Part shown: one piece after another, positions 32,805 through 32,971 of the stretch
Layout: the number at the start of each line of letters is the position of its first letter
How positions within the stretch are numbered: the first letter of the stretch is position 1
Assembly (NCBI GenBank): GCA_025057595.1
Contig: JANXBK010000010.1
Span: forward strand, 1-54,605
From: Thermodesulfovibrio sp.
GTDB lineage: Bacteria > Nitrospirota > Thermodesulfovibrionia > Thermodesulfovibrionales > Thermodesulfovibrionaceae
Length of the DNA: 54,605 nucleotides
Reading direction: 5' to 3'
Made by a program: the position numbers and the translations under genes
The notes under the pieces: model-generated
Told to the model about the DNA's origin: nothing
Databases searched by the model: none
The model's input: only the letters and a program-made list of their open reading frames with translations

Positions 32805-32829
32805 AAAAAAGGGGAGGATTATCCTCCCC
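32805..32829 (-). terminator. intrinsic terminator of the Cys-rich peptide unit
   Basis: GGGGAGGA (32811-32818), loop TTA, TCCTCCCC (32822-32829) followed on the minus strand by a six-base T-run (32810-32805). A textbook terminator directly after the 19-codon gene. Confidence 0.88.
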
Positions 32830-32836
32830 AATAGTT

Positions 32837-32896
32837 TTAACAAGAGCCTTTACACTTGCAGGTAGGCATCGATTTTGAAGAAAGCTTCTTAATCAT
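32837..32896 (-). CDS. 19-residue Cys-rich peptide MIKKLSSKSMPTCKCKGSC
   Basis: Short open frame with a strong ribosome binding site (AGGGAGGTG, about six bases before the ATG). It has its own terminator eight bases downstream and a structured leader upstream. The peptide is basic, with three Cys in the last seven residues (TCKCKGSC) and no hydrophobic segment. I do not recognise it. It could be a modified-peptide precursor, a small metal-binding peptide, or a regulatory leader peptide sensing Cys-tRNA. No maturase or transporter gene lies beside it. Translation is judged likely from the site and terminator, not from a known family. Confidence 0.6.
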   Translation of the reverse strand: MIKKLSSKSMPTCKCKGSC

Positions 32897-32905
32897 AATA
32901 ACACC

Positions 32906-32961
32906 TCCCTTTCATAGGGATTCAAGCCTCTTCATGAGGCTTTCTTAGAGCTTCATGCTCT
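32906..32961 (-). promoter_or_regulatory. leader with three tandem AUGAA-loop hairpins
   Basis: On the minus-strand transcript in order: AGAGC-ATGAA-GCTCT (32961-32947), AAGCCTC-ATGAA-GAGGCTT (32942-32924) and TCCCT-ATGAA-AGGGA (32920-32906). Stems are 5, 7 and 5 bp with different sequences, loops are identical, and spacers are 4 and 3 bases. The right arm of the third stem is part of the AGGGAGG ribosome binding site, so folding would hide it. Different stems with one fixed loop indicate selection on an RNA structure recognised through its loop. Confidence 0.7.
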
Positions 32962-32965
32962 CTTA

Positions 32966-32971
32966 ATTATA
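32966..32971 (-). promoter_or_regulatory. extended -10 promoter of the Cys-rich peptide unit
   Basis: TGA-TATAAT on the minus strand. Initiation about seven bases downstream would fall at the first base or so of the first hairpin, so nearly the whole leader is the three stem-loops. No convincing -35 element was seen. It is divergent from the radA promoter region. Confidence 0.6.

Follow-up and report, generated by a model that had tools for sequence, protein, structure and literature searches.

A small cysteine-rich peptide gene with a tandem-hairpin leader RNA and a co-inherited radical SAM protein in Thermodesulfovibrio and other Nitrospirota

The interval 32805-32971 of the window (the whole 54,605-nucleotide stretch of Thermodesulfovibrio sp. 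DNA that was analyzed) carries, on its minus strand, a unit of three AUGAA hairpins and a peptide ORF. Overall, it is best explained as a RiPP precursor gene with a tandem-hairpin leader switch, i.e., it is probably a small monocistronic precursor gene the translation of which is controlled by its leader RNA. Two finds are joined here: a near-invariant family of ~20-residue peptides with its own radical SAM maturase, which extends over Nitrospirota, Nitrospinae, and some Deltaproteobacteria and had no match among Pfam or NCBIfam models in this analysis, and a covarying leader RNA, absent from Rfam 15, at the start of the peptide gene.

All parts that the initial annotation had described (promoter, three AUGAA hairpins, a Shine-Dalgarno [SD] sequence partly inside the third stem, a 19-codon frame ending in TCKCKGSC, and a terminator) are present:

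32966..32971, minus strand: −10 box TATAAT of an extended −10 promoter (TGATATAAT), seen in the sequence; promoter activity is predicted
32947..32961, minus strand: hairpin 1, AGAGC(AUGAA)GCUCU, from sequence and fold; kept in nearly all genomes of the genus
32924..32942, minus strand: hairpin 2, AAGCCUC(AUGAA)GAGGCUU, which is helix 1 of the covariance models R1 and R2; order-wide, with covariation in 7/7 pairs
32906..32920, minus strand: hairpin 3, UCCCU(AUGAA)AGGGA, which is helix 2 of the models and the 3′ arm of which enters the SD sequence; from sequence, fold, and models
32902..32909, minus strand: SD sequence GGGAGGUG, starting within the third stem; from sequence
32837..32896, minus strand: ORF MIKKLSSKSMPTCKCKGSC for the putative 19-aa precursor peptide with the C-terminus TCKCKGSC; from sequence and the conserved C-terminus
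32805..32829, minus strand: intrinsic terminator, GGGGAGGAU-AAU-CCUCCCC followed by UUUUUU, GC-rich with a U-run; from sequence and fold

The stems of hairpins 1, 2, and 3 comprise 5, 7, and 4–5 bp, respectively, and the proposed overlap of the third hairpin with the SD sequence is borne out by their coordinates. All three hairpins and the terminator are part of the minimum free energy (MFE) fold (−51.7 kcal/mol; z = −4.0), and 0 of 200 shuffled sequences was equally stable. A TATAAT-type box is also found directly 5′ of the hairpins in the other leaders of the genus and, across the order, in the majority of leaders with two hairpins, and an extended SD of the GAAAGGAGGUG type is kept across the peptide family. 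By names given from their sequences, the neighbors of the peptide gene are radA, which is divergent, and a gene for a TPR protein, which is followed by ispE. A TPR gene 3′ of the peptide gene and on the same strand (window:31099-32896) was observed at ~27 loci in several families, some of which then carry an ispE-like gene; in the genus, the maturase gene is gone from this peptide/TPR cluster, and radA is divergent there in some species only. A search of the same genome for further copies of the unit returned only chance-level pieces.

Leader and peptide are both conserved in relatives, so that the lack of conservation by which the initial annotation would have been refuted was not observed. 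The unit was found in 15 of 15 other genomes of the genus (DNA search against 100 relatives), with shorter matches in other families, and whole-genome searches with the RNA model yielded matches at E ≤ 0.005 in 83 of the 176 genomes of the order, the strong ones lying nearly all at the peptide gene. In one genome of the genus (L023), hairpin 1 is degraded. The three hairpins emphasized in the initial annotation hold for the genus, but two are the common form outside of it. The peptide follows the consensus M-(K/T/V)-I-(K/R)-K-V-x(6)-T-C-K-C-K-(S/G)-S-C (19–20 residues, three Cys). Its C-terminal pattern, CKCK-x-[S/T/C]-C-stop, was detected in 117 of 396 genomes of the phylum, a few of these matches being chance ones without a start codon, and the reversed control pattern gave no match. 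The CKCK-x-SC end is kept in records from Nitrospirota, Nitrospinae, and Deltaproteobacteria. In eight families (f2, f3, f4, f5, f8, f9, f23, and f25), the peptide is present mostly without ANGAA hairpins, for which reason the RNA is dispensable for peptide function and control by the hairpins is lineage-specific. The open-access literature yielded nothing naming CKCKGSC-type peptides or a radical SAM RiPP of Nitrospirae. Two copies of the precursor gene per genome were observed in L193, L310, and L172/L173; in L193, both are preceded by the leader hairpin element.

Outside the genus, the peptide gene usually lies immediately 3′ of that for a ~380-aa protein with the C-terminal pattern GGCRYRA...KDLYKC. 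This is a radical SAM protein (Pfam Radical_SAM, 3.6e-22) that reached the cut-off of no NCBIfam family (best model, 84.6 versus 650 bits). As the corresponding gene is unlinked to the peptide gene in the genus (in this genome, the ortholog lies at G000:C66:60381-61526), it was out of sight of the initial annotation. The maturase is present in 118 of the 396 Nitrospirota genomes; both partners co-occur in 111, the peptide alone is found in 6, the maturase alone in 7, and neither in 272 (counts uncorrected for phylogeny). At 75 loci, the maturase family is the neighbor of the peptide, mostly upstream and on the same strand. Beyond the phylum, where 50 genomes reached via radA loci and mostly belonging to other groups were searched, one Nitrospinae, one Deltaproteobacteria, and one Desulfobacteraceae record contain a full-length maturase gene adjacent to that of the peptide, with the peptide ends GLCKCKSSC, GLCKCKTSC, and, in two tandem copies, GLCKCKHSC/GLCKCKRSC (L310, Desulfobacteraceae).

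In 31 aligned maturases, the CxxxCxxC cysteines (C103, C107, and C110) are invariant, as are seven cysteines of the SPASM region (C301, C317, C349, C354, C360, C364, and C383), by which the sequences are assigned both to radical SAM enzymes and to those with a SPASM domain. The AlphaFold model of the maturase from this genome (pLDDT 95) has its best fold matches, among those listed, in SkfB (Z 26.8), SuiB (Z 26.4), and CteB (Z 23.8). Residues 1-70 of the model form four strands, then two helices; the structural alignment with SkfB starts at residue 10 and that with SuiB at residue 5. Because the latter spans residues 5-388, an N-terminal RRE-like domain is within the fold match, and the model suggests that the maturase possesses an RRE domain. 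With SkfB, CteB (SCIFF/ranthipeptide), and SuiB (streptide), it shares the domain order RRE–radical SAM–SPASM/twitch, the fold (Z 24–27), and a short adjacent precursor; it differs from them by an identity of ~18–22% in the structural alignments and by a precursor of 19–20 aa with three Cys and a CKCK-x-SC end. Like SCIFF, the precursor contains Cys and is widely distributed, but assignment to the SCIFF ranthipeptides was rejected, as these need six Cys in ~45 residues, compared with three in 19–20 here, and no NCBIfam match was obtained for the peptide.

By the gene associations, a short precursor is thus encoded beside, and is co-inherited with, the maturase, although the two are unlinked in this genus; at this level, a precursor–maturase pair is nearly certain. 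Since the peptide is co-inherited with an RRE–radical SAM–SPASM maturase, it very probably serves as a RiPP precursor; confidence is high that the two proteins form a RiPP precursor/maturase pair. The RRE domain would bind the peptide, which would then be crosslinked at Cys residues. It is very improbable that the peptide is instead used unmodified, as a metal-binding or metallothionein-like molecule, with the radical SAM protein working on another substrate: CKCKGSC could bind soft metals unaltered, and the annotated portion of the neighbors includes no evident conserved peptidase or exporter, but neither the co-occurrence of the two genes and their adjacency across phyla nor the RRE–radical SAM–SPASM architecture, which is that of RiPP maturases, would be expected. 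As for the role of the presumed RiPP, a peptide core that hardly varies between phyla speaks for a physiological one (metal binding, cofactor, or signal) over that of a diversifying antibiotic. It was by such a signature, a tiny and near-invariant peptide linked to a maturase, that peptide-derived cofactors, e.g., PQQ and mycofactocin, came to notice. In genus g14 of family f2, one genome (G028; L189) was observed to encode the peptide but no full-length maturase, and in another (G039; L187), the maturase match contains an in-frame TAA; this is possibly decay of the peptide–maturase system.

The leader hairpins are, with high confidence, a cis-regulatory RNA. The structured leader with fixed loop and variable stems that had been proposed from the one locus recurs in relatives and covaries. 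At the locus itself, the loops are identical (AUGAA), as stated in the initial annotation, but as a strict rule this fails: the consensus across relatives is A-N-G-A-A, with U, C, or A at position 2, and the hairpin loops in 121 leaders are mainly AUGAA (86), ACGAA (12), and AAGAA (10), all others being far behind. When the best hairpin with a 5-nt loop in the upstream zone was taken regardless of loop sequence, the loop was ANGAA in 55 of 75 cases; conversely, when sites were chosen by the loop alone, 55 of 66 had a stem of at least 4 bp, compared with 4% of background ANGAA sites. Covariance model R1 was built from 12 leaders, all of them peptide leaders; with it, the present locus scores E = 1.8e-7. 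In the alignment of its 68 matches, every one of the seven pairs of the order-wide helix 1 showed compensatory change on both sides. The covariation score of the whole structure was 0.595 versus 0.175 for shuffled alignments, with 188 versus 68 changed cells (of the covariation alignments, A4 came from fitting to the model, and A2 was selected on spacing and stem). The SD hairpin (helix 2) covaries little, as expected if its sequence is constrained by the SD. In 1.59 Mb of collected DNA, which is enriched for peptide leaders and uptake islands (see below) through the way the loci were fetched, 60 distinct tandem ANGAA pairs were counted, compared with 0 for each of 19 permuted loops, and all 60 lie within peptide leaders or cobalt/nickel-corrinoid uptake islands. 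Within the genus, tandem ANGAA hairpins were seen at the peptide locus only, and none of the weak covariance-model matches elsewhere in its genomes contains them.

The possibility that the hairpins merely stabilize the mRNA or insulate the SD, the shared loop being a stable pentaloop without a partner, is unlikely. It would agree with their position near the predicted 5′ end of the mRNA, and the sequence of the SD hairpin (GAAAGGAGG) is similar to an extended SD, which could by itself conserve that loop; however, the loops of the upstream hairpins are nearly fixed while their stems covary freely, and in the uptake islands the loops join mutually exclusive terminator or anti-SD helices. Two other ideas were abandoned. 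A DNA operator is unlikely because the stem sequences change with compensation under a constant loop, and pairing of the AUG in the loop with a tRNA anticodon or the anti-SD was dropped because loop position 2 varies.

The statement of the initial annotation that no described family fits was upheld, as no Rfam 15 family matched at its gathering cut-off: scanning the window revealed tRNAs only, and the locus gave weak sub-threshold matches only. Literature searches for tandem-hairpin RNAs turned up guanidine-II, ANTAR, and general riboswitch work only. Targets of CsrA/RsmA are hairpins with ANGGA loops that overlap the SD. They share with the present leader a purine motif displayed in the loops of several hairpins, the final one lying over the SD, but the motif is GAA here and GGA there. 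CsrA, which is encoded in this genome, is absent from hairpin-bearing members of families f10 (G024, G036), f6 (G020, G032), and f13 (G038) and is therefore excluded as a general binder; on both grounds it was rejected as unlikely. ANTAR RNAs consist of two small hairpins with conserved loops (hexaloops with A1 and G4), which are read by proteins such as EutV, NasR, and AmiR (PMC3369931). Two tandem hairpins with fixed loop residues occur in both, and so does, in the cobalt islands, a hairpin mutually exclusive with a terminator; in contrast to ANTAR RNAs, the loop is a pentaloop, ANGAA (A1, G3), and what is covered at the peptide gene is the SD and not a terminator. The ANTAR domain (PF03861) was detected in 0 of 16 genomes of the genus and in 5 of 101 relatives (a very divergent one could escape detection). 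Because of its absence, together with the different length and positions of the loop, an ANTAR binder was rejected for the genus.

The same RNA appears in a second context. The best foreign matches of R1, for which only peptide leaders had served as training set, were a leader in G025 (E = 1.4e-5) and one in G037 (E = 0.0017), both E-values referring to a single genome while 61 were searched. Model R2, which includes these two leaders and is circular for them for that reason, adds a third, in G325. Each of the three precedes a gene for a TonB-dependent receptor, and the surrounding islands encode CbiM and TonB-system proteins and, variously, CbiZ, a CobN-type chelatase, NikL, and CbiQ. In all three leaders, the SD region (UCUUAGGAG) lies downstream of a perfect complement to itself, namely the 5′ arm of hairpin 2 together with its loop (CUCCUAAGA), a pattern found in just G025, G037, and G325 among 176 genomes; the SD-blocking fold is the MFE structure in two of the three. 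Further tandem ANGAA hairpins, which were not used to fetch the islands, precede a methyltransferase-like gene (L341:5442 and L342) and a gene adjoining the TonB system (L343, position 3330). Here, it is the 5′ arm of hairpin 1, together with its loop, that pairs with sequence farther downstream; this sequence ends in U6 (z −7.1, −4.5, and −4.7), and in the predicted folds the resulting helix looks like a terminator. Upstream of cbiM (L341:621), a single ANGAA hairpin follows the same design. The link to cobalt, nickel, or corrinoids, which comes from the gene content of three genomes, is a lead, and a signal related to them is quite possible, if less than probable. With Rfam 15, cobalamin riboswitches were found elsewhere in two of the islands and none on the ANGAA leaders; they (L341:2068-2277 and L342:13509-13683) precede another TonB receptor gene, suggesting two RNA controls within one island, a cobalamin riboswitch and ANGAA leaders.

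The best reading of both contexts is that a loop-binding protein or ligand acts as the switch. The leader would adopt alternative structures, and a factor binding to two ANGAA loops would stabilize the tandem-hairpin fold. In the uptake islands, this fold would exclude the terminator or the lock on the SD, so that the genes are predicted to be ON when it is bound; at the peptide gene, where the last hairpin holds part of the SD, translation is predicted to be OFF when bound. The switch would thus operate in opposite directions in the two contexts, as judged from structure alone. The factor may well be a protein, in which case a dimeric RNA-binding protein is the probable candidate, or else, as for guanidine-II, a small ligand or ion. 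The guanidine-II (mini-ykkC) riboswitch comprises two small hairpins with ACGR tetraloops that are bridged by the ligand (PMC5486947). Both RNAs place two small, GC-rich hairpins of fixed loop sequence near a ribosome binding site, but the ANGAA loop is a pentaloop, most copies lack the self-complementary CG, and guanidine-II was found neither on scanning the window nor, with E-values of up to 10 allowed, at the locus; it was rejected on loop length and sequence and for lack of an Rfam match. A direct riboswitch of analogous design, in which no protein takes part and the two ANGAA loops would pair with a small ligand or metal ion between them, is nevertheless a possible explanation. It would account for the occurrence of small, constant-loop hairpins in tandem beside SDs or terminators, for their presence in leaders of cobalt/nickel-corrinoid uptake genes, and for there being no obvious protein partner. 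On the other hand, the variation at loop position 2 means that most copies cannot form a C-G kissing pair of the guanidine-II kind, cbiM is preceded by one ANGAA hairpin only, and very few genes per genome carry the element.

Autogenous control, by which the Lys/Arg-rich precursor (KIRKVSKK...) or the maturase would bind the hairpins and stop its own translation, is distinctly improbable. Although the element is found almost solely at the peptide gene in most genomes and the N-terminal half of the peptide is strongly basic, G025 and G325 carry ANGAA leaders in cobalt islands with no maturase detected and no match to the peptide pattern, and other families often have basic peptides without any hairpins. 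Returning to a loop-binding protein or ligand as the switch, it is tentatively proposed, as a rather speculative reading, that tandem ANGAA hairpins are regulatory RNAs of a new class, either riboswitches or targets of an RNA-binding protein, by which Nitrospirota sense their cobalt, nickel, or corrinoid status, and that uptake genes are turned on by antitermination or SD release and a new RiPP with an invariant CKCK-x-SC core (a metal-handling or cofactor-like product) is turned off. The shared RNA element offers a direct route to the signal because it is also present in leaders of cobalt/corrinoid-uptake genes, the terminator and SD switches of which are clear and testable in vitro.

Two minor observations concern the variability of the hairpins. 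Between the attenuator and the start of the methyltransferase-like gene (L341:5510-5550), a further ANGAA sequence (AGCCACGAAGGTC) and a hairpin with an AGGAA loop are present, which suggests that this leader has more than two sites. At four loci of family f13 (L202, L204, L205, and L206), an SD hairpin is present but has another sequence (CUUUGCACAAAGGAGG) and a non-ANGAA loop; from the sequences, occlusion of the SD seems to be maintained at these loci without the ANGAA loop.
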